Of a DNA stretch of 64,000 bases, positions 14,885 to 34,957 are shown piece by piece. Below the pieces are notes generated by a model that made no database searches, had not been told where the DNA came from, and was given only the letters and a program-made list of their open reading frames with translations. Origin of the DNA: Terriglobus roseus (lineage in GTDB: Bacteria > Acidobacteriota > Terriglobia > Terriglobales > Acidobacteriaceae); contig NZ_LT629690.1 of assembly GCF_900102185.1 (NCBI RefSeq), positions 1,426,001 to 1,490,000 on the forward strand. Direction: 5' to 3'. How positions within the stretch are numbered: position 1 is the first letter of the stretch; each line of letters starts with the position of its first letter. The translations under genes and the position numbers were made by a program.

Positions 14885-16669
14885 ATGTACTGTTTTTCAA
14901 CACGCCAAATTCGATTGTCGTTGCTTGCCTTGCTGCTACTCGGGAGTTTCTCGTCGAGCAGCCTTGCCCAGAGGGGAAATCGCGGCGGTGGGGGCGCTCA
15001 GCAGGAGGCCAAGCCGATAGAAGGGCTGATCCCTGTGACCGATCCGCTGGTTGTTTCCAAGTGTGGGACGTGTCACACAGCGGACGCGAAGGGAAATCTG
15101 ACCCGTATCTCTGCAGTGCGCACCACGCCTGAAGGTTGGGAAGAGGCGATTAAGCGCATGGTGCGCTTGAATGGTTTGCAGCTGTCACCAGACGATGCTC
15201 GCAAAATCCTAAAGTATCTCAGTGATAGCCATGGGCTGGCCCCGGAAGAAGCTGCTGAAGTGCAGTACTTTGCGGAGCATCGCATCATCGATGAGAAATT
15301 TCCGGACGCTGCGGATACACGACGTGCATGCGCTTCTTGCCACGCCATTGCAAAGCCGTTGAGCTGGCGGCGCGCTCCAGAAGACTGGGATTTGCTGAAG
15401 AATATGCATCTTGCTTACTTCCCGTCGATTCAGAATTCGTTTGGAGGCGGACCCGGTGGTGGTGGCGGAGGAGGAGCGCAGGGCGGAGCTCCCGCTGCGG
15501 CTGCAGCGCCGGCCGGAGGTGCTCCTGCAGGACCTCCGCGGACAGCAGTGGATACTGCGCTTGCGTATATCAAGAAATCCGCTCCGCTGACGACTCCTGA
15601 GTGGTCAGCATGGGCTCCTAATGTGTCGACTCCGAAGCTCAGCGGCGCCTGGACGTTGACGGGATATATGCCGGGTAAAGGGAAGTTCTTCGGACGGACC
15701 AAGATTACTGAGACACCGAGCGGCTATACGACGCATACGGAACTCTCATTCCTAAAGGGCGGCGAGGTGACTTTGGATGGCTCCTCGCTTATCTACACAG
15801 GGTATGCGTGGCGTGGACGCGCCAAGGGACCGGCAAAGATCGAAGGTATCGATATGCCGTCTGGCTTGCGCGAAGTAATGATGTTGTCAAAGGATCAGAC
15901 CGCGATCACAGGGCGTTGGTTTTGGGGTGTCTACCAGGAATTTGGAATGGATGTGACTCTGCATCGAGAGACACCGGCGCCAGCAGTATTGGGAACGGAT
16001 GTGTATTCGCTCAAGGCTGGTGTCACGGACGCTCCTGTAACGGTATATGGTTCACATCTCAGCACGTCACTTACACCTGCGGACATTGACCTTGGCAAGG
16101 GTGTGACGGTGACTAAGGTTGTGAGCGCAACACCTGACAAGCTGACGCTGACTGCCAGTGTTGCTGCGGATGCAGTACCAGGGCCGCGTGTGATCTCTGT
16201 CGGTGGAGTGATTCTGCCGTCAGCATATGCGGTGTACAAGAAGATCGATCATCTCAAGGTATTGCCAGTCACATCGATGGCGCGGTTGGGCAGCGAACCG
16301 CATGCCAAGGGTTACATGCAGTTCGAGGCGATTGCCTATACCAACGGACCGGATGACAAGCCGAATACCGATGACGACGTTGCTCTTGGTCCTGTGCCAG
16401 CGACGTGGGCAATCGAAGAATTCATCTCTGCCTACGGTGATGACGATGTGAAGTACGTGGGGAAGATTGATCCAGCGACCGGTTTCTTTACTCCAGGATC
16501 CGATGGGCCGAACCCCGAGCGTAAATCACAACGCAATAACTACGGCGACGTGTGGTCGGTTGCTCGCTACACACCACCGGGAGAAACGAAACCCCTCATT
16601 GGCAAAGGCTATTTCATTGTCACTGTGCCGCAGTATGTGCAGTGGGATCAGCCGGAGGTGGCGCAATGA
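14885..16669 (+). CDS. qhpA: Quinohemoprotein amine dehydrogenase alpha subunit (di-heme cytochrome c)
   Basis: A 594-residue periplasmic subunit carrying the electron-exit hemes of QHNDH, which oxidatively deaminates primary amines. A signal peptide (about 1-29, ending LAQ) precedes two c-type heme sites: C60-GT-C63-H64 and C149-AS-C152-H153. Beta-rich domains follow: a lipocalin-like region (SGAWTLTGYMPGKGKFFGRT), an Ig-like segment near DAPVTVYGSHLSTSLTPADI and a C-terminal domain (VLPVTSMARLGSEP, ATWAIEEF), in the order known for the Paracoccus alpha subunit. Residues 187-218 are a Gly/Ala/Pro-rich low-complexity stretch I do not associate with the family, making the chain longer than usual. 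The ATG at 14885 gives a clean signal peptide. Its stop overlaps the qhpD start (ATGA), and the whole downstream gene order confirms the identity. Confidence 0.93.
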   Translation: MYCFSTRQIRLSLLALLLLGSFSSSSLAQRGNRGGGGAQQEAKPIEGLIPVTDPLVVSKCGTCHTADAKGNLTRISAVRTTPEGWEEAIKRMVRLNGLQLSPDDARKILKYLSDSHGLAPEEAAEVQYFAEHRIIDEKFPDAADTRRACASCHAIAKPLSWRRAPEDWDLLKNMHLAYFPSIQNSFGGGPGGGGGGGAQGGAPAAAAAPAGGAPAGPPRTAVDTALAYIKKSAPLTTPEWSAWAPNVSTPKLSGAWTLTGYMPGKGKFFGRTKITETPSGYTTHTELSFLKGGEVTLDGSSLIYTGYAWRGRAKGPAKIEGIDMPSGLREVMMLSKDQTAITGRWFWGVYQEFGMDVTLHRETPAPAVLGTDVYSLKAGVTDAPVTVYGSHLSTSLTPADIDLGKGVTVTKVVSATPDKLTLTASVAADAVPGPRVISVGGVILPSAYAVYKKIDHLKVLPVTSMARLGSEPHAKGYMQFEAIAYTNGPDDKPNTDDDVALGPVPATWAIEEFISAYGDDDVKYVGKIDPATGFFTPGSDGPNPERKSQRNNYGDVWSVARYTPPGETKPLIGKGYFIVTVPQYVQWDQPEVAQ

Positions 16670-18093
16670 TGTATTCCAAGTCTCAAGTGCATACCTTTCG
16701 AGGGGCGGAGCATGACTTCGCCTACCTTGTTCCCAGCGGCGGCATTGTGGCGTTGGATGGCATCTCCACGGAAGTATTAAAGCGCCTCGAAGACCAGCCA
16801 ATGTCACGTGAGAGGCTGATCGTTGAGCTGGTCGAAAGTGGTTACAGTTACGCTGAAGCCGCGGAGTGCGTTGATGAGTTGCAAGAGGTCCGTGCCATTC
16901 AGGATGGACCTGCTGTATACGAGCCGTCACAAGCGCTGCCAGAAGACTTTCCTCTGCAGAGCATTGTGCTGAACGTAACGAATCAGTGCAATCTGTCCTG
17001 CTCTTACTGTTATGAGTTCGGAGAAGACAAGATTGCTACTCCTGACGGTAAGAAGAAGTTTATGGACATGGAGACTGCGAAGGCCTCCGTGGACTATCTC
17101 CTTGATGAGTCAGGTGATCGTCCCAGTGTTCACATCACCTTCTTCGGTGGCGAAACACTGATGAACTTTCCGCTGATGAAGCAGGTGGTCATCTACGCGC
17201 GAGAAGAGGCAACGAAGCGTGAACGTAAGGTGGAGTTCAGCCTGACGACGAACGCGACACTGCTCTCTGAGGCTATCGTTGATTTCCTGGTGGAGCATGG
17301 CATTGGCGTGACAGTCAGTATGGATGGCACGCGAGAGATGCAGGACAAGTTTCGAATCTTTTCCAATGGTAAAGGCAGTTACGACATCATCAAGCCGAAG
17401 GTTAAGAACCTGATCTCTAAGCATCGTGCACGGCCTGTTGGTGCGCGAGTGACGATGACTTCTGGCGCGATGGACGTGCGCGCTATTTATGACCATTTGA
17501 AGGGCGAGCTTGGATTCCATGAGGTTGCATTTGCGCCTGTGACCACATCGCCAGATCGGTTGTACTCCATCGGCGAGCCCGGCATGGGACGCGTTCTGGA
17601 GCAGTTCAGTGATCTGGCGGACGAGTACCTGGCGTATGCGTTGCGTGGAGAGCATCATGGCTTTTCTAACGTGAGTGATACGTTGGCAGAACTCCACCAG
17701 GGCGTAAACAAGTCTCTGCCATGCGGTGCGGGGCTGGGCATGGTTGGGGTTGGCCCTTCTGGTGACATTGCTCCTTGCCACCGCTTTGTGGATTCGGATG
17801 AACACGCAATCGGCCACATTTCTGAAGGCATCGACAAAGAGAAGCGCGCTGACTTTCTTGGCCGAGGCAATGTCGACACAAAGTACGACTGCCATTCGTG
17901 CTGGGCAAGACCGCTATGTGCGGGCGGTTGCCATCATGAAGCTTTTGTCCGGTATGGCGATACGGGCCATGCGAACCTTCACTATTGCGATTGGATCCGT
18001 CAATGGACGCATAAGTGCCTAGAGATATACGGCGCTATTGCAGAGAAAAATCCAGCATTTCTACAGCACTTTGAAGAGAGGAAGACTGCATGA
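16666..18093 (+). CDS. qhpD: Radical SAM peptide maturase for the QHNDH gamma subunit
   Basis: A 475-residue SPASM-type radical SAM enzyme. In characterised systems it forms the intrapeptidyl Cys-to-Asp/Glu thioether bridges of the gamma subunit in the cytoplasm. The SAM-cluster motif is C108-x3-C112-x2-C115 (VTNQCNLSCSYCYEFG). FFGGETLMNF is the GGE-type SAM motif. C-terminal cysteines for auxiliary clusters are at 353, 371, 409, 412, 418 and 422 (DCHSCWARPLCAGGCHHEAF). The N-terminal 90 residues resemble a small peptide-recognition (PqqD-like) wing. Length equals that of the Paracoccus enzyme as I recall it. GGAGGT lies 6 bases before the ATG at 16666, which overlaps the qhpA stop; the next gene overlaps by 4 bases too, so translation is coupled. 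Confidence 0.93.
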   Translation: MMYSKSQVHTFRGAEHDFAYLVPSGGIVALDGISTEVLKRLEDQPMSRERLIVELVESGYSYAEAAECVDELQEVRAIQDGPAVYEPSQALPEDFPLQSIVLNVTNQCNLSCSYCYEFGEDKIATPDGKKKFMDMETAKASVDYLLDESGDRPSVHITFFGGETLMNFPLMKQVVIYAREEATKRERKVEFSLTTNATLLSEAIVDFLVEHGIGVTVSMDGTREMQDKFRIFSNGKGSYDIIKPKVKNLISKHRARPVGARVTMTSGAMDVRAIYDHLKGELGFHEVAFAPVTTSPDRLYSIGEPGMGRVLEQFSDLADEYLAYALRGEHHGFSNVSDTLAELHQGVNKSLPCGAGLGMVGVGPSGDIAPCHRFVDSDEHAIGHISEGIDKEKRADFLGRGNVDTKYDCHSCWARPLCAGGCHHEAFVRYGDTGHANLHYCDWIRQWTHKCLEIYGAIAEKNPAFLQHFEERKTA

Positions 18094-18434
18094 AGCATCT
18101 GCACGCCATCAATAAAAAGGCACATCGGATCGCGGCTCAGGTTGAAGCAGAAAAGAGCGACGTCATCGCGTTGCAGCGAGGAGGCGGAGCTCAGCAGGCA
18201 TTACCACACGTCCCCATGGGCTGCTCGATCATCTTCTCTCCAGGTTGGGAAGTGGATTCGGCCGGTGGAACCGCAGGTCTTTGCCAGCCTGTGGAGCGCG
18301 ATATCTACGACTGCTATGTGACCTGTTTCTGGCCGGCGCAGGTGCCGGATCACATGAACAACTATCCCGACTGGACAAGCAAGTGCGCGCTTGCCACGAA
18401 GGATTGGCGCAGCATGGACATCGTCTTCCCATAA
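18090..18434 (+). CDS. qhpC: QHNDH gamma subunit precursor (cysteine tryptophylquinone peptide)
   Basis: A 114-residue precursor whose C-terminal about 76 residues match the catalytic gamma subunit. If Cys45 is taken as mature residue 7, every cross-linked residue known from Paracoccus falls in register: Cys7-Glu16 (C45, E54), Cys27-Asp33 (C65, D71), Cys41-Asp49 (C79, D87), and Cys37-Trp43 (C75, W81), the pair that becomes cysteine tryptophylquinone. FWPAQVPD and NYPDW are further family hallmarks. The leader is about 38 residues and Lys/Gln/Gly-containing (RGGGAQQALP), with no Sec signal, as expected for a peptide cleaved by QhpE and exported by QhpF. One additional Cys (C99) lies outside the known bridges. 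It overlaps qhpD by 4 bases. Confidence 0.95.
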   Translation: MKHLHAINKKAHRIAAQVEAEKSDVIALQRGGGAQQALPHVPMGCSIIFSPGWEVDSAGGTAGLCQPVERDIYDCYVTCFWPAQVPDHMNNYPDWTSKCALATKDWRSMDIVFP

Positions 18435-18489
18435 GGCACCGTTGGTTACATCTTCCGCTTTTTACTGCATTTGCTTTGAGAGGAGCATC

Positions 18490-19638
18490 ATGCGTTTGAT
18501 TGTGAAATTTGCCGCCGTCGTCACTTTGCTATCGAGCACGGTTTGCTTTGCTGAACTTCCAAAACCGACGAAGTCGACGAAACCAGCGGAACCACAGTTG
18601 ATGTATCTGGGCACGTGGCCGCATGCCATTCGTGTCATCGACATGAACACTGAGAAGGTTGTCGACACGATCGAGCTTCCTACGGATATCGCGCGTACGT
18701 TGGTGCTCTCTCCAGACAAGACGAAGTTGTACGCTTCGAGCTTGCGTGACAACTGCATTGTGACGATCGATCTGAAGACTCGCAAGGTGATCGACTCGTT
18801 CTCGTTGAATACGCCGACGGAACAGAACCGTATTGCGGGTCTTGGTGTCGATCCTAACGGCAAGCTGATGTATACCCAGATCACCACTTTCATCAAGAAG
18901 AGCGATCGCTTCGAGGTGGAAGATCCTAAATGGGCCGTCATTGACCTGGAACAGAAGAAGGTCACACGCACCGTTCCAGTGCCGCAGGCAGAGCGTAACG
19001 CAGGTGGTGGCGGTGGTGGTCGCGCTCCGTATCGCATATCGCCGGATGGAAAATTTCTCTATGTCGTTCGGCAGAATATTCAGATCTACAACACATCGGA
19101 CTTCAAGTTGGTAAAGACGATTGATCTTGCCAGCACGGCTGCACCGCCGGGTACGGAGACACTGTCGTTGAATCTGATGGATGATCCGAATGCGCCGACG
19201 GGACGTATCTGGGGCATCTTCAACTCGACTGATCCCTATGTGCACCGGGCGATCTTTGGTTTTGCGGACATTGACTTGTTCAATGGTGACTATCAGCTGA
19301 CGCCGATTGCGCCGAGCGAAGGCAGCTTGCAGCCCATGATGATTACGCCGGATCACAAAATGGGATACACCGTCTTCACGTCAGGTACGCACGGTGATCG
19401 CATCACCGAGTTCTGGGCGTTTGATCTGGATAGCAAGAAGATCGTGGCACGCAAAGAATTCCCAGGACGCACGCGTCTAGCGGCATTTGGTATGTCAGCA
19501 GATGGCAAGAAGCTGTTGATCTACAGCGCGGGCTACGAAGTTGAGGTGTACGACACGAAAACCATGGCGTTAGAGAAGTCGATTGACCTTGGTGGTGATA
19601 CGACATCGAACCTGATCGTGATGCCGTTCCATCCGTAA
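18490..19638 (+). CDS. qhpB: QHNDH beta subunit (seven-bladed propeller)
   Basis: A 382-residue periplasmic beta-propeller subunit that packs against alpha and gamma in the QHNDH heterotrimer. Residues 1-21 are a signal peptide (ending VCFAE). Blades of the YVTN type are visible: PHAIRVIDMNTEKVVDTIEL, LVLSPDKTKLYASS, GVDPNGKLMY, ISPDGKFLYVV and MSADGKKLLIYSAG with VYDTKTMALEKSIDL. Residues 172-177 are six consecutive Gly (RNAGGGGGGRAP), which looks like an insertion between blades. GAGGAG stands 4 bases before the ATG at 18490, and an upstream in-frame extension (from 18391) overlaps qhpC and was rejected. It follows qhpC by 55 bp. Confidence 0.92.
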   Translation: MRLIVKFAAVVTLLSSTVCFAELPKPTKSTKPAEPQLMYLGTWPHAIRVIDMNTEKVVDTIELPTDIARTLVLSPDKTKLYASSLRDNCIVTIDLKTRKVIDSFSLNTPTEQNRIAGLGVDPNGKLMYTQITTFIKKSDRFEVEDPKWAVIDLEQKKVTRTVPVPQAERNAGGGGGGRAPYRISPDGKFLYVVRQNIQIYNTSDFKLVKTIDLASTAAPPGTETLSLNLMDDPNAPTGRIWGIFNSTDPYVHRAIFGFADIDLFNGDYQLTPIAPSEGSLQPMMITPDHKMGYTVFTSGTHGDRITEFWAFDLDSKKIVARKEFPGRTRLAAFGMSADGKKLLIYSAGYEVEVYDTKTMALEKSIDLGGDTTSNLIVMPFHP

Positions 19639-19650
19639 ACGGATGTTTTG
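19630..19650 (+). terminator. Short hairpin across the qhpB stop codon
   Basis: CATCCG (19630-19635), loop TAAA and CGGATG (19640-19645) are followed by TTTTG. The 6-bp stem spans the qhpB stop and resembles a weak intrinsic terminator. Together with the hairpin at 19659 it could lower expression of the downstream qhpF and qhpE genes. Confidence 0.45.
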
Positions 19651-19658
19651 TAGACATG

Positions 19659-19694
19659 CAGGAGGCGAGTGGTTGAAGTGCACTTCGCCTCCTG
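19659..19694 (+). terminator. Intra-operon hairpin between qhpB and qhpF
   Basis: CAGGAGGCGA (19659-19668) pairs perfectly with TCGCCTCCTG (19685-19694); the loop contains its own palindrome GAAGTGCACTTC (19675-19686), so two mutually exclusive structures are possible. TGATCTATTTT follows. This may be a partial terminator separating structural genes from export and processing genes. Confidence 0.45.
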
Positions 19695-19726
19695 ATCTAT
19701 TTTCCCCAAGCGTTGGAAGCAGGATC

Positions 19727-21496
19727 ATGCAGCAGAAGGAAAGAGCTTCAATTCCGTACCGTCAGTATCGGAGAGCGATGGTGTTTGTCGCGCCCTTCTG
19801 GCGAGGACTGACGTTTGTTTTGCTGCTCGGCCTATTCTCGACGGTTGTCAGTCTTGCCCAGCCATATATCTCCCGTCTGTTGATTGACAATGCATTACTG
19901 CGCCACAACATGTCAGCGTTGTTGCGGATTGCATTTCTGATGCTGGCAGTAACTGTTGTCGGATTTGTGGTGAATGCTCTATCGAATTACGTCTACACCC
20001 GCGTCTCCGCAGAGAGCCTGTTTCAGATGCGGCTTGCAGTGTTTGAGCATTTGCAGAGGCTCTCGCCCCGATACTTTGCGCGGCAGAAGCTCGGCGATAT
20101 TGTCTCGCGCATTAACAACGACATCGGTGAGGTGCAGCGCGTCTGCTCAGACACGTTGCTCTCCGTCTTCTCCAATGTGCTGTTCCTGGTGGGTAGCCTA
20201 TTCATGATGGCGTGGCTGAATCCACGGCTTATGCTTGCAAGTGTTTGTTTGCTGCCGATCAGTATTTTTGCTCTGCGTCATTATCAGAATCGTTTGATGA
20301 TTCACACCGCGGAGCTTCGGCAACGCAGCTCAGACCTCGGCAGCTTTCTGATTGAAGCCATCATGGGACTGCGATTGATTGTGACTTCAACCGCAGAACA
20401 GCGCGAGACTCAGAAATTCCGCAATCACAATAGCCGTTTTGTGGCGTCGCTGCTTTCAATGCAAATGACGTCGTTCTATGCAAGTGCATTGCCTGGCACA
20501 GTCCTTACGCTCTCGACTGCCATTGTGTTCCTATACGGCGGAAGTCTGGTGATCCATGGGGCGCTGACTGTAGGAGCATTTGTTGCCTTTTTGGCATATC
20601 ACGTGAAGCTACTCGGCCCGGTGCAGAATCTTCTTGGTATCTACACCAGTCTGCTCACGGGTGGCGTGTCTCTGGCTCGTGTGTTTGAAGTTCTCGACGT
20701 GCCGGTGGAGGTGATAGAAGCCAATGATCCCACTTCGCTAGTGCCGCTGCAGAGTGAGATCCGACTGGAAAATGTGAGCTTTCGCTATCTACCGAACGTG
20801 CCTGTTTTAGAAGATGTGTCGATGCGTTTGCGGAAGGGCCGGCTGCATGTGTTGGTAGGGCCAAGCGGCGCAGGTAAGTCAACTGTGGGTGATCTGTTGG
20901 TGCGGTTCTTCGATGTACACGCTGGGAAGATCACGGTAGATGGCGAAAACATCCGCGACTTTTCGCTATCCGATCTCCGCAGCATGATCGCGGTCGTGGA
21001 GCAGACACCTTATCTATTCCACGCTTCGGTTCGTGAGAATATCGCATACGCTCATCCTGAAGCGACCATTTCTCAGATACACGAAGCGGCACGGCAAGCG
21101 GGCATTCACGAGTTTCTACAACGCTTGCCGGAGCGCTATGAAACGATGATCGGCGAACGTGGCTCTACGCTCTCTGTTGGTGAGCGTCAACGTATTGCGC
21201 TGGCACGTGCTCTGCTTCGCGATCCACAGGTGCTGGTGTTGGACGAGCCAACTTCTGCACTTGACCCGGAGGCTGAAGCGATAGTGACTGATGAATTGAC
21301 CAACAACCTTCGCGGCCGGACAACGTTGGTGATTACACATCGTGCGTCGTTGGTGCATGCTGCTGACTATGTATTTGTTCTCAGCGGAGGTCGAATCATT
21401 CAAGAAGGAGCGCCGCACGCCCTGCCGCAGGGCGACGGTGCTTGGGTGCAAAGCTTTGGTCGCGAGACGGTCCAGGTGGAAACGGCGACAGTATGA
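19727..21496 (+). CDS. qhpF: ABC exporter for the processed QHNDH gamma subunit
   Basis: A 589-residue half-size ABC exporter with fused membrane and ATPase domains. Several TM helices occupy residues about 15-310 (GLTFVLLLGLFSTVVSLAQP, LLRIAFLMLAVTVVGFVVNAL, LLSVFSNVLFLVGSLFMMAW). The nucleotide-binding domain shows Walker A GPSGAGKST (about residue 378), signature LSVGERQRIALARAL (about 482) and Walker B VLVLDEPTSALD followed by an ITHR switch His. In the known system QhpF moves the cross-linked gamma peptide to the periplasm. The ATG at 19727 follows GCAGGA; the upstream in-frame ATG at 19643 lies inside the hairpin region and was rejected. The stop overlaps the qhpE start. Confidence 0.88.
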   Translation: MQQKERASIPYRQYRRAMVFVAPFWRGLTFVLLLGLFSTVVSLAQPYISRLLIDNALLRHNMSALLRIAFLMLAVTVVGFVVNALSNYVYTRVSAESLFQMRLAVFEHLQRLSPRYFARQKLGDIVSRINNDIGEVQRVCSDTLLSVFSNVLFLVGSLFMMAWLNPRLMLASVCLLPISIFALRHYQNRLMIHTAELRQRSSDLGSFLIEAIMGLRLIVTSTAEQRETQKFRNHNSRFVASLLSMQMTSFYASALPGTVLTLSTAIVFLYGGSLVIHGALTVGAFVAFLAYHVKLLGPVQNLLGIYTSLLTGGVSLARVFEVLDVPVEVIEANDPTSLVPLQSEIRLENVSFRYLPNVPVLEDVSMRLRKGRLHVLVGPSGAGKSTVGDLLVRFFDVHAGKITVDGENIRDFSLSDLRSMIAVVEQTPYLFHASVRENIAYAHPEATISQIHEAARQAGIHEFLQRLPERYETMIGERGSTLSVGERQRIALARALLRDPQVLVLDEPTSALDPEAEAIVTDELTNNLRGRTTLVITHRASLVHAADYVFVLSGGRIIQEGAPHALPQGDGAWVQSFGRETVQVETATV

Positions 21497-22167
21497 GTAA
21501 ACCGGTTCGCATTGCGATCTTAGATAGCGGTGTTGCGGTGAATCATGCACATATCTCTCGTCCAGTGTCTGGTGGCGTCACGATCACCTCTGACGGCATT
21601 TCAGAAGGATATGCGGACATGCTCGGGCATGGAACTGCAGTATGTGCGTTGATTCAGGCTATGGCACCAGAAGCGCAGGTATTCTCGGTAAAAGTATTCG
21701 ATCGAAGACTGGCGACCACAGCATCTATCGTTATGCGTGCGATTGAATGGTGTCTGGAAAACAGCATGGACATTGTGAATCTAAGCCTCGGCACTGCAAA
21801 TTCCGATCATCGGCAACAGTTTGCTGCTGTAGTCGACAGGGTGTGTGTGGCAGGGGCAGTCCTGGTCTCTGCTTATGAGGTGAATGACACTTTGATGTTG
21901 CCGGGATCCATGCGCGGTGTCGTGGGAGTGGTGGAAGACACAGCGTGCGAACGTGAAGAAGTTCGCGTGTTGCCCGGAGACCCACGGCGGGTGACAGCTT
22001 GTCCCTATCCATTGGACATTGCAGGTGTACCTCGCGAACGCAATCTTCGTGGTGTGAGCTTTTCTGTCGCACATGTGTCTGCGCGGCTTGCGTGCTTGAG
22101 AGCTAACGATGCGCGCACACCATGGGAAGAGCTTCTGCGTGGTGCGTCTGTCGCAACAGCGGTTTGA
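21493..22167 (+). CDS. qhpE: Subtilisin-like leader peptidase of the QHNDH gamma subunit
   Basis: A 224-residue S8-type serine protease without signal peptide, consistent with the cytoplasmic protease that removes the gamma-subunit leader after cross-linking. The triad is recognisable: Asp11 (AILDSGV), His46 (GHGTAVCAL) and Ser189 in RGVSFSVAHVSA, a divergent form of the GTSMAAPHVSG block. It is much shorter than typical subtilisins, as is usual for QhpE. Start at 21493 overlaps the qhpF stop by 4 bases (ATGA), indicating coupling. It converges on qhpG with only 6 bp between stop codons. Confidence 0.88.
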   Translation: MSKPVRIAILDSGVAVNHAHISRPVSGGVTITSDGISEGYADMLGHGTAVCALIQAMAPEAQVFSVKVFDRRLATTASIVMRAIEWCLENSMDIVNLSLGTANSDHRQQFAAVVDRVCVAGAVLVSAYEVNDTLMLPGSMRGVVGVVEDTACEREEVRVLPGDPRRVTACPYPLDIAGVPRERNLRGVSFSVAHVSARLACLRANDARTPWEELLRGASVATAV

Positions 22168-22173
22168 TTCGCG

Positions 22174-23202
22174 TTACGGCCTATCGATCGGAATGAGATC
22201 TCGCCCGACTAATCGATAGCGTGGTGGAGATGCTTGCGTGAGCAACGTGGAGAGATACTGCGCGCCTTTGTTTAGCACGTCCACCTGTTCTCGCCAGAAA
22301 TCGCTTGTGCCGCCGGATTGATAGAACTGCAGGCAGACTTCAAGGTGTCGTGCAAAGCCCAGGCAGAGACGGCTTTCATAGTGTTCCGCTAACTCTGCAA
22401 TGGGGTGTCCTGCTAAGCCAGCACGTATCACCGCTGCAGCTAAAAAAGCTTCCCGAATGGCATTGCCTGCTCCTTCTCCACAGAGCGGATCGAAGCTCAT
22501 TGCCGCACTTCCACACGCAATGATTCCAGGCTCAGTAAGTGTGAGTGCAAGTTGCGACGACGCGGGAACGAGCGCAGAAGTTGGTGTCACAGAATCTAGT
22601 TGATGAGAGATAAGTCTGCTGTCCTGGAGAAGTACTTGTGGCGTATCCCCGACGGCCATCAGGGTTGCTTGTCCTTCACCTCGCGGCAGCAGGAAGAGCC
22701 ACCCGTTGGTCGTTGATTCCACCCAGCAAGCATCGTCTGGAGCAGTAGGAAGAAGCTGCGCGACGGCGATGTGTGCATAACGTTCACCAACACGCAGCGC
22801 AGATTCAATGGAGGCGTTCGAGCCGAGGGTCTTTATCTTCCATGCGCATCCCTCGGACTCAACATGATTGCGGTCAAAAGATGTTTGATCCCATAGCCGT
22901 TCCAACAGAACGTCTTCTGGTGCTACAAGCCCGAGATGAGGAAATGACACTGCCTCCTTTGCATTGCCCCAGAGCACAATACGACGCCGAATTGGAAGGA
23001 AGCCGGCGTACAGCGCATCGCCTGCATCTGCAATAGGAAAGATTTCGTGCAAGAGATACTGCGTGGCCTGGCTCAGCAGAATGGCTGCAACTTTAGGTCG
23101 TTGGGTTTTCTCGCCGATGCAAGCGACGCCAGCGTCGCGTAGAAGGCGTGTCAAGCAAACAGATGCGATGCCATCACCCTCCATGCAAACCAATGCACTC
23201 AT
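22174..23202 (-). CDS. qhpG: FAD-dependent monooxygenase of QHNDH biogenesis
   Basis: A 342-residue flavoprotein-like chain. The N-terminal Rossmann region is short and divergent (ALVCMEGDGIASVCLTRLLRDAG), and the second FAD motif reads IIACGSAAMSFDPLCGEGAGNAI, matching the GD-box block of tryptophan-halogenase/hydroxylase-type flavoproteins. In Paracoccus QhpG dihydroxylates the gamma-subunit Trp on the way to the quinone. Identification rests on fold motifs plus position next to qhpE. Unlike the other qhp genes it is on the minus strand, convergent with qhpE, and separated from the receptor gene upstream by a terminator, so it must have its own promoter in 23203-23260. GGAAC precedes the ATG. 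Confidence 0.8.
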   Translation of the reverse strand: MSALVCMEGDGIASVCLTRLLRDAGVACIGEKTQRPKVAAILLSQATQYLLHEIFPIADAGDALYAGFLPIRRRIVLWGNAKEAVSFPHLGLVAPEDVLLERLWDQTSFDRNHVESEGCAWKIKTLGSNASIESALRVGERYAHIAVAQLLPTAPDDACWVESTTNGWLFLLPRGEGQATLMAVGDTPQVLLQDSRLISHQLDSVTPTSALVPASSQLALTLTEPGIIACGSAAMSFDPLCGEGAGNAIREAFLAAAVIRAGLAGHPIAELAEHYESRLCLGFARHLEVCLQFYQSGGTSDFWREQVDVLNKGAQYLSTLLTQASPPRYRLVGRDLIPIDRP

Positions 23203-23260: not shown

Positions 23261-23291
23261 AAAAAGAACCTGCGAGGGAGGCCCTCGCAGG
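23261..23291 (-). terminator. Intrinsic terminator of the Oar-like receptor gene
   Basis: CCTGCGAGGG (23269-23278) and CCCTCGCAGG (23282-23291) form a perfect 10-bp stem. Read on the minus strand it is followed by TTCTTTTT. It separates the receptor transcript from qhpG. Confidence 0.85.
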
Positions 23292-23318
23292 CTGAGGAGG
23301 TAGTACAACACAAATCGG

Positions 23319-27508: not shown

Positions 27509-30500
27509 GTGGAACGGCTGCTCAGACTTTTGTCGACGAAATCTCCCGTCTCTGGGCGATGGCTGGTGGTCTGCCTTCTGGCGGCTGGACTCTCCGGGTG
27601 TAAGGGCAAACCTGCGCGCGTGGCGGGAGATGCTGGGGGGAACCTAGATTTCAACCGGGACGTGCAACCCATCCTTGCCAGCAATTGCTTTAGTTGCCAT
27701 GGTCCTGACCCTGGGAACCGAAAGGCTGGACTCAGGCTTGATCTGGAGGAGTCGGCTTTTCGGAAGCGGCCGGGACATCCAGACGCGATCGTCCCCCATC
27801 ATCCGGAACTGAGTGAACTTGTCAAACGGATCGAATCCAAGAATCCGCACTACCTGATGCCTCAGTCTGCGCAGGGCGATGCCAAGCCGATGAAGCCGGA
27901 AGAAATTGCGGTGCTGAAGGAGTGGGTGAAAGAGGGTGCGGTCTACCGCCCGCATTGGGCTTTTGAGGTTCCGGTCAAAGTGCAACTGCCGCAAGTGAAC
28001 AATGCGGCATGGGCCAAGAACCCCATCGATCGTTTCGTCCTGGCGAGTCTGCAGACGGAGGGGTTGAATCCGTCTCCGGAGGCGGACAAGCGTGCGCTCA
28101 TTCGTCGTGTCACGCTCGATCTGACCGGCCTGCTGCCCGACCCGAAGGAGGTCGAGGCGTTTGTGAAGGATGCATCGCCGGATGCGTATGAACATGTGGT
28201 GGACGCTCTGCTGGCGCGACCGTCGTATGGCGAAGCGCGCACACGGTACTGGCTGGACTACACACGCTATGCGGATACGTACGGAATTCACTTCGATAAC
28301 AATCGCTACATCTCGCCGTATCGCGACTACCTGATCCGCTCCTTCAATCTGAACAAGCCCTATGACCAGTTTGCGATGGAGCAGATTGCCGGCGACATGA
28401 TGCCGTCGAAGACACTGGATGCGATCATCGCCAGCGCCTATGTTCGCTCGGGTATCAGCAGCAATGAGGGCGGGGCGATTCCTGAAGAGTTGCGCGTGAA
28501 CATCGCTCGCGAACGTACCGAGGCTTATGGTGCGGCGTTCCTTGGTCTCACAGTTGGCTGCGCCGTATGCCACGACCATAAGTACGATCCCACCACGCAA
28601 AAGGACTTCTACTCGTTAAGCGCGTTCTTCAACAATATGGAAGAGCTTCCTTTCAACGGTGACGCGCCGAATTGGGCTCCGGTGGTACGGATGCCGAAGC
28701 CGCAAAACGAAGCAGCATATGACCGCGTGTGGGCGAAGCGAACAGAGCTGCAGAGTGATGTTAATCAGGCTCGTGCAGACGAGCGCGGCATGGTCTCCGC
28801 GTGGCTTGCATCGCGGAAGGATCTGCCGACTCCTGTGTCACCGGATGCGATGCAACTTCGCCTGCGGCTTGATGAGGGAGGCGGAGAGGTACTGAAGAAC
28901 TCGGCGCCTCATTCTATGCCTGCGGAGTTTGCCATTGGTAAGAACAAGCCGCAATGGGGAGAGAACACCTTCCTATGGCCTGATTTCCGTCTAGATACGA
29001 CGACTCGTATAAGTCTCGGCCAGACCGGCGACATGGAGTGGAATCAGCCGTTCTCTGCAGGCGGTTGGGTGATGCTTCGTATTGCGCCCAGTTTCAGGAA
29101 CGTGCTCGGAACACTGCTTTCCAAAGTGGATAGCAACAACCAGATGCGCGGATGGGACCTGTTCGTAAATCGCGGAGTTCTCAACCTTCAACTGGCAGAC
29201 GAAGGACCGACCGGTCTTGTCGTGAAGGATCCCGCACCGGTGAAGGCAGCACCGCAGGCTTTTCATTATGACGATCCTCATCCTCGTCCCAAGCCAGCGC
29301 TCAAGAAGCCTGATCCTAAGAAAAAGATGGCAGCGGCACCGCCTCCAGAAGGGAAGAAACCGGGCCGTGCGATCCGTGTCGCTGCGGTAATGCCCATCCC
29401 TTCCGATGGCTCGTGGAAACACATCTTCTTTACCTACGATGGTTCGGGGAAGGCTGCGGGCATCAAGCTTTACGTTGATGGCAAGCCGATAGCGACGACA
29501 ATCATCGTGGACAATCTCCGCCCGAACGATAAGGTTCAGCCGCCTACGATTCGGACGCAAGCGCCCATGATGCTTGGCTGGCGCTATCCCGAGGGCAATC
29601 CTGCACACGACACGCGGTATCAGGATCTTCGACTGTATAAGCGCGCTCTGACGACGGATGAGATCGCTCGGCTGCCCTATGAAGACTATGCTGCCGAGTT
29701 GGCGGCCGGGCAGACCACACAGTGGAATGCGGATCAATGGCACGCAATGGGTGAGTTCTATCTGAACCACGTCAACGCGGACACGATGGCCAAACAGGCT
29801 GAAATCGCAAAGCTGGACGGCGAACTTGCCAAGTTATCGGAGGGTGGTGAACTCTCCATGGTCTCCGCTGAAAAGTCTTCGATCCCATATGCTGATGTTC
29901 TAACGCGCGGTGTCTATAGCGCACGTGCAGAACGTGTTGCTGCCAACACACCGCACTATCTTCCCGCATTGCCTGCGAACATGCCGCATAATCGTCTGGC
30001 ACTGGCGAAGTGGACAGTAAGTCCTCAGAATCCGTTGACCGCTCGAGTTACGGTCAATCGTATGTGGTACGAAGTCTTCGGTACTGGACTGGTGGAGACC
30101 ACGGAAGACTTTGGCATCATGGGTGGTCGTCCTTCGCATCCCGAATTGCTTGACTGGCTTGCCGTCGAGTTTCGCGAGAGCGGATGGGACATGAAGCACA
30201 TGTACAAGTTGATGGTGATGTCTGAGGCCTATCGCCAAAGTGCGGTGTCTCGACCCGATCAACTGAAGAGAGATCCCCGAAACCTGTTGCTGGCGCATGG
30301 TCCGCGCTTCCGCATGGATGCCGAGATGCTGCGCGACGTCGCGCTTCAGAGCAGTGGTTTGCTTGTGAACAAGATAGGTGGCCCAAGTGTGAAACCGTAT
30401 CAACCTGCGAACGTGTGGGAGCAGGTAAGCTATCCAACGGCCGACACGGCGAAGTATGAGCAGGACCATGGTGACGCACTCTATCGTCGCAGCATGTACA

Positions 30501-30937
30501 CCTACTGGAAGCGAATGGCTATCCAGCCAGACATGGATGCGTTTGACGCGCCGATGCGTGACGGAGCGTGCACACGCAGACAGCGAACGGACACGCCTCT
30601 GCAGGCGTTGGTCACCATGGATGATGTGCAGTGGGTGGAGGCGTCCCGAGCGCTTGCACAGCGCGTTATCAAGCAGGGCGGTCGTCAACCGGAGCAACGC
30701 ATTCGCTTGTTGAGCAACATCCTCCTTGCTCGCGATCCGTCTCCAAAAACAACGGCAGTATTGATGGCCTCGCTCGACAAGATGCAGAAGCATTATGCGA
30801 CGGATGTGAAGGCTGCAGATCAGCTCGTCGCCGTCGGCGAAATGAAGCGTGACACGTCGATTTCTGCGCCGGAGCTTGCGGCATGGACTATGGTTGCCAG
30901 TGAAATGTTGAACCTGGACGAGACGTTGACGAAGTAA
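27509..30937 (+). CDS. PSD1 and planctomycete cytochrome C domain lipoprotein
   Basis: A 1142-residue exported protein. The signal ends in a lipobox (LAAGLSGC, Cys31), so it is probably a lipoprotein. A planctomycete-type cytochrome c module has C60-FS-C63-H64-GPD. It is followed by a DUF1549 domain (about 150-380; [40 protein letters not shown], which adds a second CxxCH), a LamG-like domain (about 480-720) interrupted by a Pro/Lys-rich linker ([15 protein letters not shown]), and a C-terminal PSD1/DUF1553 domain ([46 protein letters not shown]). The function of this family is not established; redox and polymer degradation have been proposed. Start is a GTG at 27509 with a poor ribosome site, chosen because it yields the full signal sequence. 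First gene of a four-gene operon. Confidence 0.88.
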
Positions 30938-30950
30938 TGAGGGACGGAAA

Positions 30951-32498
30951 ATGAAACAACATCCTCTCTGCACGGATAACGAACACGAACTTGATGTCTC
31001 GCGCCTTGCGCTGCCAGCGGAGGTCCGACGAGAGTGGGCATCGCTGCAGACACGCCGTCATTTCCTGGGTCGTGCGGGTAAGGTGATGGGATGGGCGGCA
31101 ATGGCGAGCCTCGCCGGTGACCGTTTGTTGCAGACGCATGCGTCTAGTCCGAAAACACCAGCAGGCGCACCCGGTCCCGACGAACTGAAGCTGCCGCATT
31201 TCGCACCGAAGGCCAAGCGCGCGATCTATCTGTTCATGTCTGGTGGGCCGCCACAGCTCGACTTGTGGGATTACAAGCCGAATCTTGCTGCGCAGTACGA
31301 CAAGGACATTCCTGATTCTGTTCGTGGAGCGCAGCAGGTGACCGGCATGACCGCGGGCCAGGCGCGTTTCCCCGTTGCACCCTCTCATTGGGACTTCAAA
31401 CGCTACGGTCAAACGGGCACGTATGTCAGCGATCTGTTGCCGTACACCAGCAAGCTTGTAGATGACCTCACGATCATCAAGTCAACCAACACGGACGCCA
31501 TCAATCATGAACCCGCAATCATGCTGATGAACACGGGCAACATGAACGCGGGTAAACCATGTTTGGGTGCATGGCTGGCTTATGGGCTTGGCAGCATGAA
31601 CGATAATCTGCCGACTTTCCTGGTGCTTCAGACCAAGCTGAATCCCAAAGAGAATAATCAGCCGGTATCGTCACGCTTGTGGAGCAGCGGGTTTCTTTCA
31701 TCGGAGTACGCGGGCGTGGGTCTGCGCTCCGCAGGTGACCCGGTCTTGTACATCAACAATCCTGATGGTGTGGACAGCACGACGCGCCGCCAAATGCTGG
31801 ATGCTGTGAATCAGATCAACCGTGAGACATACGAAGAGGTTGGCGATCCAGAGACGAACTCGCGAATTGCGCAATATGAGATGGCGTACCGTATGCAGAC
31901 GTCCGTGCCGGAGCTGGCCGACCTGAGCAAGGAGCCACAGACGACGTGGGACTTGTACGGCGAAGAAGCAAAGGAACCAGGCACGTTCGCATACAACTGC
32001 CTTATGGCGCGGCGTATGGCGGAGCGTGGAGTGCGCTTCACACAGGTCTACAAGCGCGGTTGGGATGTTCACGGCAACGTGGTGGGTATGCTGCCGCAGC
32101 TGTGCGGTGAAGTGGATCGCGCCTGCTATGCGCTGGTGACCGATCTGAAACAACGTGGATTGCTGGACGACACGCTGGTGATTTGGGGTGGTGAGTTCGG
32201 CCGCACGGTGTACAGCCAGGGCGGCCTGTCACGCGAGAACTACGGCCGTGATCACCATCCGCGCTGTTTCACCACGTGGATGACTGGCGGTGGCGTACGT
32301 CCCGGTATCTCTTACGGAGAGACAGACGATTACAGCTACAACGTTGTGAAAGATCCAGTGCCGGTGCGCGATTTCAATGCGACGATCCTTCATTGCCTTG
32401 GCATTGATCACAACAAGCTGACGTACAAGTTCCAGGGGCTCGACCAGAAGCTGACGGGGACCACTCCCGCAAACGTGGTGAAAGGTCTTCTGGCATGA
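30951..32498 (+). CDS. DUF1501 (sulfatase-like fold) protein with Tat signal
   Basis: A 515-residue protein that almost always accompanies PSD1 cytochrome proteins. The N-terminal RRHFLGRAGKVMGWAAMASL is a twin-arginine signal located about 30 residues in. The body has the alkaline-phosphatase/sulfatase-like core of DUF1501: AIYLFMSGGPPQLDLWDYKP, NTDAINHEPAIMLMNTG, ERGVRFTQVYKRGWDVHGN, DTLVIWGGEFGRTVYSQGG, GRDHHPRCFTTWMTGGGVR. Asp and His residues at metal-site positions (GRDHHP) are kept. The biochemical activity of the family is unknown. It lies 13 bp after the PSD1 gene and 6 bp before the next. Confidence 0.9.
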   Translation: MKQHPLCTDNEHELDVSRLALPAEVRREWASLQTRRHFLGRAGKVMGWAAMASLAGDRLLQTHASSPKTPAGAPGPDELKLPHFAPKAKRAIYLFMSGGPPQLDLWDYKPNLAAQYDKDIPDSVRGAQQVTGMTAGQARFPVAPSHWDFKRYGQTGTYVSDLLPYTSKLVDDLTIIKSTNTDAINHEPAIMLMNTGNMNAGKPCLGAWLAYGLGSMNDNLPTFLVLQTKLNPKENNQPVSSRLWSSGFLSSEYAGVGLRSAGDPVLYINNPDGVDSTTRRQMLDAVNQINRETYEEVGDPETNSRIAQYEMAYRMQTSVPELADLSKEPQTTWDLYGEEAKEPGTFAYNCLMARRMAERGVRFTQVYKRGWDVHGNVVGMLPQLCGEVDRACYALVTDLKQRGLLDDTLVIWGGEFGRTVYSQGGLSRENYGRDHHPRCFTTWMTGGGVRPGISYGETDDYSYNVVKDPVPVRDFNATILHCLGIDHNKLTYKFQGLDQKLTGTTPANVVKGLLA

Positions 32499-32504
32499 GG
32501 GCGC

Positions 32505-33911
32505 GTGTCCGCTAACAAAATTCTTTGGAAGGACAAGACCGCTCGCAGACGATGGATAGCAGCAATTGTGCTGTCGCTGTTACTGCTTAGTCTGCCATGG
32601 ATCGTTCGGTTGAACGGCCAGCCGCACGCTGACTGGCAGCAGTTCCTTGGACGCTTTCATCCTCTTGCGGTACATCTTCCGGTAACGCTCATACTGCTGG
32701 TGCCGTTGCTTGAACTTGGTGGTAGGCGAAAGCCCGCGTTGCGCGAGGCCGCAGGTTTTGTTCTCGGCCTGGCATTCGTGGGCTGCATCGCATCGGTGAT
32801 GCTGGGCTATCTGCTTGCCTTTGGGAGTGGCGCAGCTGGTCCTGGGGTCACGCGCCACATGTGGGGAGGCATCCTGCTCACGGTATGCACCATGCTGTGT
32901 TTGCTGACGCGACCCTTATGGTCAGCGTCTGCTGCAGATAAGGTTTACCCTGCGTTGCTGGTGAGCACACTGATCGTGATGATGTGGGCCGCACACCAGG
33001 GCGGCTCACTCACGCATGGCAGCAATTACCTGACCGTGTACGCGCCACGCCCGATCAAAACAATCGTCTCCCTTGGTAGTTCGAAGGCAAAGAGCGATTC
33101 GTTTTACGTGCAGCACATTGATCCGATTTGGGACAATAAGTGTTTGTCCTGTCATGGTGACGGCCAGGTGAAGGGCGGCTTACGCATGGATACCTTCGAG
33201 GCACTCATGGTGGGCGGCAAAGACGGCCCGGTAATCGTGCCAAACAAGCCGGACGATAGTTTACTGCTCAAGCGGGTGACACTTCCGGAAGGCCACAAAC
33301 AGTTCATGCCAGCGGAGGGGAAACCACCACTCAGCCAGGAGGAGATTGCATGGATCAGGGCATGGATTCAGCAAGGCGCATCCCCCGCAGCTACAAATCT
33401 TGCAGGCATCTCGATTCGAGAACAGCGTGACATTCCGCTTGAGCCGGTGGGGGACTACAGCGCGTTACAGCCTGAGATTGATCGCATGAAGATTGCTCCC
33501 GGAGCAAAGCTACTCACTGTTTCCGCAAAGCCGTCTGACGGCTTGATACTCAACACGCTCGATGTTGCGGCGAGCTTTGGCGATGCGCAACTCACGCAGT
33601 TCGAGAAATACGCTCCGTACATCGTCGAGGTCGATCTTGCGAGAACCGCCGTTACAGACGCGAGTTTTACAACGCTCGCCAAATTTACACACCTGCGCGC
33701 GATTCATCTGGACAACACAAATGTTACCGGAAGCGGCCTTGAGGAGCTTGCAGCGTTGAAGCACTTGAGCTATCTCAACCTGAGTGGGACGAAGATTACA
33801 AGCGAAGGCGCCTCGCGATTGAAAGCGCTGCCCAGTCTGCAGCATATCTATCTCTTCAACACACCCGCACAGCCTTTGACTCAAGCAGCAGAAGTGAGGA
33901 AGACATCATGA
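32505..33911 (+). CDS. Membrane cytochrome c protein with DUF2231-like and leucine-rich domains
   Basis: A 468-residue protein with three parts. Residues 1-180 hold several TM helices (WIAAIVLSLLLLSLPWIV, FHPLAVHLPVTLILLVPLLEL, GFVLGLAFVGCIASVMLGYL, LLVSTLIVMMWAAHQGGSLT) resembling DUF2231-type membrane cytochrome modules. Residues about 195-300 are a planctomycete-type cytochrome c with C213-LS-C216-H217 and FMPAEGKPPLSQEEIAWIRAW. Residues about 330-450 are leucine-rich repeats (IVEVDLARTAVTDASFTTLAKF, LRAIHLDNTNVTGSGLEELAA, LSYLNLSGTKITSEGASRLKA). It may be the membrane electron acceptor or anchor of the PSD1/DUF1501 system. Start is GTG (32505), 6 bp after the previous stop; its end overlaps the next gene by 4 bases. 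Confidence 0.85.
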   Translation: MSANKILWKDKTARRRWIAAIVLSLLLLSLPWIVRLNGQPHADWQQFLGRFHPLAVHLPVTLILLVPLLELGGRRKPALREAAGFVLGLAFVGCIASVMLGYLLAFGSGAAGPGVTRHMWGGILLTVCTMLCLLTRPLWSASAADKVYPALLVSTLIVMMWAAHQGGSLTHGSNYLTVYAPRPIKTIVSLGSSKAKSDSFYVQHIDPIWDNKCLSCHGDGQVKGGLRMDTFEALMVGGKDGPVIVPNKPDDSLLLKRVTLPEGHKQFMPAEGKPPLSQEEIAWIRAWIQQGASPAATNLAGISIREQRDIPLEPVGDYSALQPEIDRMKIAPGAKLLTVSAKPSDGLILNTLDVAASFGDAQLTQFEKYAPYIVEVDLARTAVTDASFTTLAKFTHLRAIHLDNTNVTGSGLEELAALKHLSYLNLSGTKITSEGASRLKALPSLQHIYLFNTPAQPLTQAAEVRKTS

Positions 33912-34957
33912 GCAGTGCATCCAAGTGGACACGTCGGAGCTTCCTGGCCGGTTCGGCCTCGGTAGTCGTCGCCAACAGATTGAGTCAGCCACAGACAGCA
34001 CACGCACAGGCGGCTTCGCCGACAACCGCAATCACCGGCAACGGAGAATGGGTATACCGCACCGTGAACAACTGGGGCACGCTGCCTGCTGGAACCATCT
34101 ACGGTGGTACACACGGCGCGATTGCTACCGACGTTGCAGGCAACATCTACGTCGCCACGCAAAGCAACACAGGTGTCCTCGTATACTCGGCTGATGGCAA
34201 GCTGCTACGCAGCATTCTCAAGGACTACCCTGAAGTGCATTCCATGGTGCATCAACAGGACTCCGACGGAGAACGCTTTCATGTGACAGTGCAGAAAGGG
34301 ACGCCAGAAGCGAACTGGCTCTATCTCACTGTCAAACCGGACGGCACGGTATTGAGAAAGATCACAGCGCCGCAGGAGGCGGGCTTTGCAGCACCGAATG
34401 CATGGCGCCTGACTGCAGCGGTGCCCGCGCCCGATGGAGATCTCTGGATCGCAAACGGATACGGCGACTCGCGCCTGTTTCGTTTCGACAAGAACGGCAA
34501 CTACAAAGCGGCATACGCGGGCAAAGGAAACGCAGACGGTATGTTCCAGTGCAGTCATGGGCTTGCCGTCGACACGCGATATGACCAGCCGTTACTGCTC
34601 GTCTGTGATCGCGAGAACCGCAGGCTTGTACACATGGACTTCGATGGAAAATTCGTCCGCAACATTGCCTTGCACATGCGTCGCCCTTGTCAGGTGAGCT
34701 TCTATGGTGAACATGCAGTTGTCTCCGAACTTGAGGGCCGTGTCACGATCCTCGATAAAGACAACGCCATCGTGGCATTTCTCGGTGATAATCCGGATCG
34801 CACGATGTGGGCAAAATACGATCTGAACCCTGCATCCGTCGCACCCGCGCTTTTCAGCGCCGCGCACGGCTGTCTTATAGATTCATCCGGCAACATCTAT
34901 ATCTCCGACTGGAACAAGACCGGCCGCGTTTCAAAGTTGGAACGTATGACTGCATGA
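33908..34957 (+). CDS. NHL-repeat propeller protein with Tat signal
   Basis: A 349-residue exported protein. A twin-arginine signal (RRSFLAGSASVVVANRL, cleavage near AHAQA) precedes a beta-propeller with NHL-like blades: GAIATDVAGNIYVATQSNTG, WLYLTVKPDGTVLRKI, DGDLWIANGYGDSRLFRFDKN, SHGLAVDTRYDQPLLLVCDR and HGCLIDSSGNIYISDWNKTG. Propellers of this sort bind ligands or act as lyases and lactonases (peptidylglycine-lyase-like); no catalytic set can be fixed. It overlaps the preceding gene (ATGA) and is the last gene of the PSD1 operon, followed by a terminator. Confidence 0.85.
   Translation: MSSASKWTRRSFLAGSASVVVANRLSQPQTAHAQAASPTTAITGNGEWVYRTVNNWGTLPAGTIYGGTHGAIATDVAGNIYVATQSNTGVLVYSADGKLLRSILKDYPEVHSMVHQQDSDGERFHVTVQKGTPEANWLYLTVKPDGTVLRKITAPQEAGFAAPNAWRLTAAVPAPDGDLWIANGYGDSRLFRFDKNGNYKAAYAGKGNADGMFQCSHGLAVDTRYDQPLLLVCDRENRRLVHMDFDGKFVRNIALHMRRPCQVSFYGEHAVVSELEGRVTILDKDNAIVAFLGDNPDRTMWAKYDLNPASVAPALFSAAHGCLIDSSGNIYISDWNKTGRVSKLERMTA

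Follow-up and report, generated by a model that had tools for sequence, protein, structure and literature searches.

A 64,000-nucleotide stretch of DNA of the soil bacterium Terriglobus roseus (contig NZ_LT629690.1; the whole stretch is referred to below as the window) carries a qhp gene cluster that, judged from its sequence, is a genuine quinohemoprotein amine dehydrogenase (QHNDH) locus and as such an ordinary one; what appears unusual is the hydroxylation step of cofactor formation, which in this clade and its relatives seems to depart from the mechanism studied so far. The locus is best explained as a distinct subtype, in which the tryptophan of the cysteine tryptophylquinone (CTQ) cofactor is probably hydroxylated by a short QhpG-like protein that would hold its flavin differently from the QhpG of structure 7CTQ. 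The last cofactor step may work differently in the clade of the window, since the protein standing in the place of the quinone builder has lost a domain and parts of the flavin site.

The original prediction described a complete QHNDH locus in a probable acidobacterium, and this gene set is well supported, with the open reading frames (ORFs) lying where they had been placed according to both the ORF list and the sequence. QhpA, QhpD and QhpC score above the curated thresholds of NCBIfam (502 bits against 274 for TIGR03908, 621 against 453 for TIGR03906, and 138 against 50 for NF037958, respectively). QhpA, with a signal peptide judged by eye and a di-heme c domain, aligns with 1jmx_A and 1jju_A, and the core of the QhpC precursor aligns with 1jmx_G (E 1e-23) and 1jju_C. 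Both CXXCH motifs occur in every QhpA row that covers them. The eight gamma residues forming CTQ and the three Cys-Asp/Glu thioethers of the solved enzymes are kept in all 78 gamma subunits compared. Cys37, Trp43 and the pair Cys41-Asp49 are given as gamma cofactor or cross-link residues in the excerpted text of PMC7876137. The qhpF product contains the Pfam domains ABC_membrane and ABC_tran, and the Asp/His/Ser triad of QhpE is present in 35/35 rows of the clade with short QhpG. In sequence, QhpB matches 1jmx_B and 1jju_B only weakly, and an archaeal surface-layer propeller scores higher than either. Its AlphaFold2 model (predicted local distance difference test, pLDDT, 82.6; 16 rows) had 1jju_B (E 3e-22) and 1jmx_B (E 2e-20) as the top two Foldseek matches among PDB entries, which supports a predicted propeller beta subunit with the fold of chain B of 1JJU and 1JMX. 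In the mapped loci, qhp genes of these kinds are repeatedly found as neighbours, so the cluster is not a chance assembly.

QhpA, QhpD and QhpC are thus identified by family models and the beta subunit by predicted fold. The claim that every known maturation enzyme can be identified is only loosely true, since the short QhpG scores below the cut-off of its model, is without the winged-helix domain and shows changes in the flavin site. Similarly, qhpG does adjoin qhpE, on the minus strand and convergent with it, but its product is a distant, shortened relative of QhpG. The three ATGA overlaps are present. The gene order, which had been likened to that of Paracoccus, is not the one of P. pantotrophus, the Paracoccus examined, where the order is G(-) A D C B E F with qhpG divergent upstream; the A D C B F E order of the window is that of Leisingera. 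Arrangement, order and strand of the qhp genes vary between bacteria, as stated in the excerpted text of PMC7876137.

In the proposed pathway, QhpD would form the Cys-Asp/Glu thioethers in the QhpC precursor, and the short QhpG, predicted to have a flavin-monooxygenase fold reduced to the catalytic domain with the QhpC-facing channel residues kept, would hydroxylate the CTQ tryptophan. QhpE would remove the QhpC leader and QhpF would export gamma, which would then join the di-heme alpha and propeller beta subunits in the periplasm. The assembled enzyme would oxidize primary amines to aldehydes and transfer the electrons to its own hemes. The QHNDHs of Pseudomonas putida (1JMX) and Paracoccus denitrificans (1JJU) have in common with this system the di-heme alpha, the gamma with all residues of CTQ and the thioethers, the propeller beta, and QhpD, QhpE and QhpF; QhpD and QhpB of the window are 39-40% and 20-22% identical, respectively, to the proteins of P. 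pantotrophus and P. nitroreducens. The window differs from the classical systems in an extra gamma cysteine, a longer leader, the short QhpG-like protein and its placement in a separate clade.

The short QhpG was compared in 39 short rows (window included, the split ORF of locus L034 dropped) and 25 long QhpG rows, with the residue numbers of 7CTQ transferred by motif via the P. nitroreducens QhpG (L069), not from coordinates. Arg70, Trp74, Trp181, Pro267, Arg314 and Phe322, with channel or QhpC-facing residues among them, are kept in 39/39 short QhpGs. The AlphaFold2 model of the window protein (pLDDT 90.1, predicted template modelling score, pTM, 0.89; 24 rows) has 7ctq_A as its best Foldseek match (E 1e-16). 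Predicted catalytic-domain fold, channel residues and genomic setting are common to the two proteins, and the window protein differs by the missing winged-helix domain, by loss of the GD aspartate, the GR motif, Glu42 and Trp183, and by cysteine in place of Ser269. The QhpG of 7CTQ is a peptidyl tryptophan dihydroxylase and introduces both oxygens into the CTQ tryptophan, unlike MauG, LodB and GoxB, according to the excerpted text of PMC7876137. Identity of the short QhpG with LodB or GoxB, the maturases of CTQ oxidases, was considered and rejected: model length (about 360 amino acids) and a distant similarity are shared, but the scores (39 and 22 bits) lie far below the cut-offs of 400 and below the QhpG score, and the setting here is qhp rather than lodA or goxA. 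No gene above the QhpG cut-off was found in the window's own genome.

The short QhpG is under purifying selection, with ratios of nonsynonymous to synonymous substitution (dN/dS) of 0.09-0.31 in eight sphingomonad/Caulobacter pairs, above those of QhpD and QhpC in each pair, yet well below 1; three acidobacterial-type pairs were saturated. Values well below 1 were also obtained for A, B, C, D, E and G in the eight pairs, the acidobacterial-type pairs being mostly saturated.

Several observations weigh against the proposed reading. The short QhpG scores 63.6 bits against a cut-off of 240 (NF049967), QhpB 67.2 against 223.2 (TIGR03907), and QhpE 163.3 against 165 (NF049966), a miss by less than 2 bits. 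VIA-align ranked the halogenases CmlS (Z 31.1) and CndH (30.7) above 7ctq_A (28.2) for the short QhpG model. The winged-helix domain is absent, with 102-114 amino acids after the DP motif in the 39 short rows and 162-213 in the 24 long rows measured; in the QhpG of 7CTQ this domain spans residues 349-429 (PMC7876137, excerpted text). The aspartate of the GD motif (Asp260), present in 25/25 long QhpGs, is replaced in the short ones (T21 S15 A2 N1), the GR motif has both residues in 25/25 long rows and each of them in 1/39 short rows, and Trp183, in 25/25 long, is F31 Y8 in short. Glu42 and the segment bearing Arg111 are lost in 39/39 short rows. Mutation of Glu42 or Trp183 nearly abolishes the activity of the studied QhpG (PMC7876137, excerpted text). 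Finally, no regulator or aldehyde dehydrogenase gene was seen by eye beside the locus in ORF lists with minimum lengths of 60, 180 or 260 amino acids, and the aldehyde-dehydrogenase-type gene found lies about 33 kb away.

Other departures are the third glycine of GxGxxG, absent in 39/39 short rows (G22 A3 in the long ones), Arg240, lost in all 39, and Arg89, kept in one. Because the long QhpGs of the wider clade also depart from 7CTQ, with Glu42 in 10, Arg89 in 9, Arg314 in 1 and Arg70, Arg140 and Arg240 in none of the 19, the list of losses peculiar to the short form is narrowed to the GD aspartate, the GR motif, the third glycine, Trp183, the Ser-to-Cys replacement and the winged-helix domain.

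These residues bear on whether the short protein is simply an ordinary QhpG that binds flavin adenine dinucleotide (FAD) much as 7CTQ does, its differences being tolerated divergence. The best Foldseek match is consistent with this explanation, as are the first two GxGxxG glycines, the re-face proline and the two channel tryptophans, all kept in 39/39. The long QhpGs of the wider clade add to it, since all 19 are without Arg240, Arg140 and Arg70 and nine are without Glu42, and the only one of them that was scanned also falls below the cut-off (193.8 against 240). It is nevertheless unlikely, given that the short form has no winged-helix domain and that the GD aspartate and Trp183, gone from every short row, and the GR residues, all but gone, are invariant in the long ones.

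It appears quite improbable that the short QhpG is instead a flavin-free scaffold or chaperone in a complex of QhpC and QhpD, with the tryptophan hydroxylated by another protein or autocatalytically. Loss of the flavin-site motifs with retention of the QhpC-facing Arg70, Arg314, Trp74 and Phe322 would fit such a role, the studied QhpG aids QhpD in a ternary complex (PMC7876137, excerpted text), and in three further loci of the phylum another candidate hydroxylase is present. However, no candidate partner was recognized beside the locus, the genome of the window has no match to PF01136, the U32 family of that other candidate, and the GxG start and flavin-side proline persist. The absence of several of the same 7CTQ residues from the long QhpGs of the phylum slightly raises the explanation by an ordinary QhpG and slightly lowers that by a scaffold. 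It is very unlikely that no CTQ enzyme is made, whether by decay of the locus or by a gamma with thioethers only: the QhpG is divergent and occurrence within the genus is patchy (gamma in 2/6 sampled genomes, its own included), but all ORFs are intact, dN/dS is well below 1 for six genes and the CTQ residues are invariant.

The different candidate hydroxylase is a pair of genes found in the qhpG slot, flanked by qhpB (or qhpC) on one side and by qhpF or qhpE on the other, in loci L094 (11439-13459), L079 (11530-13492) and L074 (10201-12185), where no qhpG occurs. The second gene encodes a protein matching Peptidase_U32 with 115-116 bits; its best UbiU score is 89-96 bits against a cut-off of 440, and comparison with E. 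coli UbiU by hhalign gave probabilities of 98.9-99.5. This protein carries a CX6C motif. Its partner, encoded by the first gene, had no match in Pfam or NCBIfam and no convincing one in PDB, and has four cysteines invariant in six sequences, with the spacing CXnCX18CX3C. UbiU-UbiV are O2-independent hydroxylases with [4Fe-4S] clusters, and UbiV has the spacing CXnCX12CX3C (PMC6747719, excerpted text). Identity of the partner with UbiV was rejected, as hhalign found no significant match and only the four-Cys spacing is alike. The likeness to UbiU-UbiV is thus confined to the CX6C of the U32 protein and the CXnCX18CX3C cysteines of its partner in these three loci, and it is offset by the low UbiU score, the lack of a significant UbiV match and the absence of U32 from the window's genome, which had 0 matches to PF01136, whereas 8/14 control genomes had a match.

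The first protein of the pair was found in 7/396 genomes of the phylum of the window, all seven among the 28 that are gamma-positive (hypergeometric probability 4e-9, or 2e-7 with genera as units, other kinship being ignored). The pair may be an O2-independent tryptophan hydroxylase. We know of no example of an O2-independent peptidyl-tryptophan hydroxylase, and none of the openly licensed PMC papers searched links UbiU with amine dehydrogenase, or peptidase U32 with tryptophan and a quinone cofactor. In 4/7 genomes, however, the pair lies on a different contig with no qhp gene recognized in 20 kb, and the qhp locus has a long QhpG; this weakens the idea, since the pair is not simply a replacement of QhpG everywhere. 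These same-family pairs away from the qhp contig are at L130 (10309-12375), L131 (8427-10444), L132 (8259-10276) and L133 (9543-11498). A small ORF at 3804-4118 of L133, about 5.5 kb from the U32 pair gene, resembles by eye what we take to be a Nif11-type leader peptide.

That the locus extends the setting of the enzyme beyond the proteobacteria holds weakly. The qhp operon was already known from more than 1300 bacterial species (PMC7876137, excerpted text). QHNDH is not rare in the phylum of the window, where gamma was found in 28/396 genomes, compared with 7/398 in Pseudomonadota (each sample includes its own seed genome). Hydroxylase classes were assigned from script output and by hand. Nineteen of the 28 gamma-positive genomes have a long QhpG, mostly encoded directly upstream of qhpA, four a short QhpG (G000, G233, G345 and G187), and three the U32 pair in a locus that lacks QhpG (G281, G259 and G377, the last in one of its two loci). 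In the remaining two no hydroxylase was visible, G370 having the locus on an 11.5-kb contig; a search elsewhere in G370 and G188 gave nothing convincing, the G188 contig ending within qhpF. The cluster of G377 seems to be split: L073 contains A, D, C and B nearer to the classical type, F, E and G not being seen within 20 kb, and L074 contains D, C, the U32 pair, F and E, with no A or B seen.

A QhpD scan of genome contigs, reaching close relatives only, yielded 37 loci, one from an unclassified metagenome-assembled genome at 83% and 36 at 57-66%. Of the latter, 33 are named as Sphingobium, Novosphingobium, Phenylobacterium, Caulobacteraceae, Sphingomonadaceae or Sphingomonadales, L010 and L020 are named only as Proteobacteria, and L014 only as bacterium. 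Five plasmid loci with organism names (L068-L072) were added. In the sphingomonad/Caulobacter-type loci (the 36 and L068), a short qhpG lies between qhpB and qhpF in 35/37, in L034 as a split ORF, and the contigs of the other two, L005 and L032, end within qhpB. Short QhpG always accompanies the cluster (40/40 loci where it was found), in differing positions: the gene is convergent with qhpE in the window, L002, L077 and L078, and in L075 it shares 4 bases with the end of qhpE.

A QhpD phylogeny against proteobacterial sequences, proposed as a check on the original prediction, was run with 72 rows (six partial loci left out; midpoint root) and set the short-QhpG clade of the window apart from the classical proteobacterial rows. 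The 37 rows with short QhpG all fall into a single clade (100/100) within a group of 60 rows, the rest of which come from the phylum of the window; the classical proteobacterial rows, together with L073 of that phylum, lie on the opposite side of the tree. In this clade, 32 loci of the sphingomonad/Caulobacter type are nested among five of the acidobacterial type, and the sister of the 32 is L075, which comes from the same class as the window (100/96). The tree of QhpA (52 rows, 15 of the sphingomonad type kept) agrees (97/96), and holding the five acidobacterial-type rows together was rejected (approximately unbiased test, p-AU 0.026). With a midpoint root, rows from the window's phylum and Pseudomonadota, long branches flagged and a tested group that was chosen once the first tree was in hand, these trees point to a putative transfer of the subtype from acidobacteria to sphingomonads. 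A recent import into the window was considered on the basis of composition and rejected, the G+C content of 4-kb blocks being 0.51-0.57 across the window with no sign of a fresh insertion. The sphingomonad and Caulobacter amine dehydrogenases stand on the acidobacterial side of the family, which makes their annotation by analogy with Paracoccus inadvisable.

A wider reading, rather unlikely and put forward tentatively, would join these observations. CTQ biogenesis of the acidobacterial type would be independent of the canonical FAD-dependent QhpG; the clade of the window would have kept a catalytic shell with its QhpC-binding face, with flavin bound covalently through Cys241 or no flavin at all; sister lineages would employ the U32 pair as an O2-independent peptidyl-tryptophan hydroxylase; the extra gamma cysteine would form a further cross-link; and the whole subtype would have passed from acidobacteria to sphingomonads. 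The stripped QhpG-like protein of this clade and the U32 pair of the sister loci would reveal the essential parts of QhpG and whether O2 is dispensable for making the quinone.

In the gamma subunit, the first core cysteine is at residue 45 in the window, ten positions later than in P. pantotrophus (residue 35). The extra gamma cysteine (Table 1) is absent in six classical rows with long QhpG (A5 V1) and present in L073. A shared disulfide partner was not found in QhpA or QhpB: only the four heme cysteine columns of QhpA are Cys in more than half of the 59 subtype rows (each 57/59, with 2 gaps), and in QhpB two columns are Cys in 33/58 rows, not in the window. The extra cysteine may possibly serve in a further cross-link.

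In the alpha subunit, a change of heme ligand was considered, the His of the solved alphas being Asn in the window. It was rejected because classical rows can have Tyr or Arg there as well, and Met163 and His246 (numbered as in the 665-amino-acid ORF) do not vary where covered. QhpA also has a Gly/Ala-rich low-complexity insert between the heme domain and domain II (window 15440-15545), which gives spurious PDB matches and is absent from the classical alphas aligned.

Table 1. Features of the qhp locus and its flank (window positions).
Feature	Position	Strand	Basis or occurrence
qhpA, alpha subunit, 594 aa (amino acids)	14885..16669	+	TIGR03908; Pfam heme-binding domain and domains II-IV; 1jmx_A E 4e-69
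Heme c motif 1, CGTCH	15062..15076	+	kept in 35/35 covering short-clade rows (2 more are gaps)
Heme c motif 2, CASCH	15329..15343	+	kept in 35/35 covering short-clade rows (2 more are gaps)
ATGA overlap qhpA/qhpD	16666..16669	+	sequence
qhpD, radical S-adenosylmethionine (SAM) maturase predicted to form thioethers, 475 aa	16666..18093	+	TIGR03906; tree
ATGA overlap qhpD/qhpC	18090..18093	+	sequence
qhpC, gamma subunit precursor, predicted CTQ carrier, 114 aa	18090..18434	+	NF037958; 1jmx_G E 1e-23
Cys37 equivalent of CTQ	18312..18314	+	C in 78/78 gammas
Trp43 equivalent of CTQ	18330..18332	+	W in 78/78 gammas
Extra gamma Cys	18384..18386	+	C in 67/78 gammas, 37/37 short-clade rows
qhpB, divergent predicted beta-propeller beta subunit, 382 aa	18490..19638	+	TIGR03907 67 bits (below cut-off); predicted fold
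qhpF, putative ATP-binding cassette (ABC) exporter, 589 aa	19727..21496	+	ABC_membrane and ABC_tran; adjoins qhpE in most mapped loci
ATGA overlap qhpF/qhpE	21493..21496	+	sequence
qhpE, putative subtilisin-like leader protease, 224 aa	21493..22167	+	NF049966 163.3 vs 165; Asp/His/Ser triad
Short QhpG-like protein of predicted flavoprotein fold, 342 aa	22174..23202	-	NF049967 63.6 vs 240; model; top Foldseek match 7ctq_A
Cys241 codon of short QhpG	22480..22482	-	aligns with Ser269 of 7CTQ; C in 39/39 short, S in 25/25 long
Terminator-like hairpin between the outer-membrane protein gene and qhpG	23267..23293	-	12 pairs, 8 GC, T-rich tail
Oar/TonB-receptor-like outer-membrane protein, 1147 aa	23319..26762	-	PF25183 578 bits

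Next to the short qhpG lies a gene for an Oar-like outer-membrane protein, and such a gene is found near qhp in 5/5 acidobacterial-type loci with short QhpG, on differing sides, as well as upstream of the U32-type locus L094 (756 bits). The family is large in the window's genome, with 128 matched stretches; against the window protein, its closest paralogue reaches 510 bits, the corresponding neighbours of L002, L077 and L078 reach 1237-1287, and the neighbour of L075 reaches 832. Among plasmid records, only two of Granulicella tundricola matched this protein at 1e-40, with 26-29% identity; a permease of the window matched Rahnella, Gemmatirosa, Gloeobacter and Acidisarcina, and a dehydrogenase matched mixed bacteria. 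The hairpin between the two genes is a pattern match, 18 such sites being found against a shuffle mean of 11.5, and the promoter scan was uninformative, with a single sigma-70-like match where shuffled sequence gave a mean of 8.4. Farther along, the regions 27509-34957, 43611-45500 and 51796-54036 contain what we take by eye to be a planctomycete-type set of cytochrome and DUF (domain of unknown function) genes and two pyrroloquinoline quinone (PQQ)-like beta-propeller dehydrogenases, with a further, presumably Oar-like, receptor gene between the two dehydrogenase genes.

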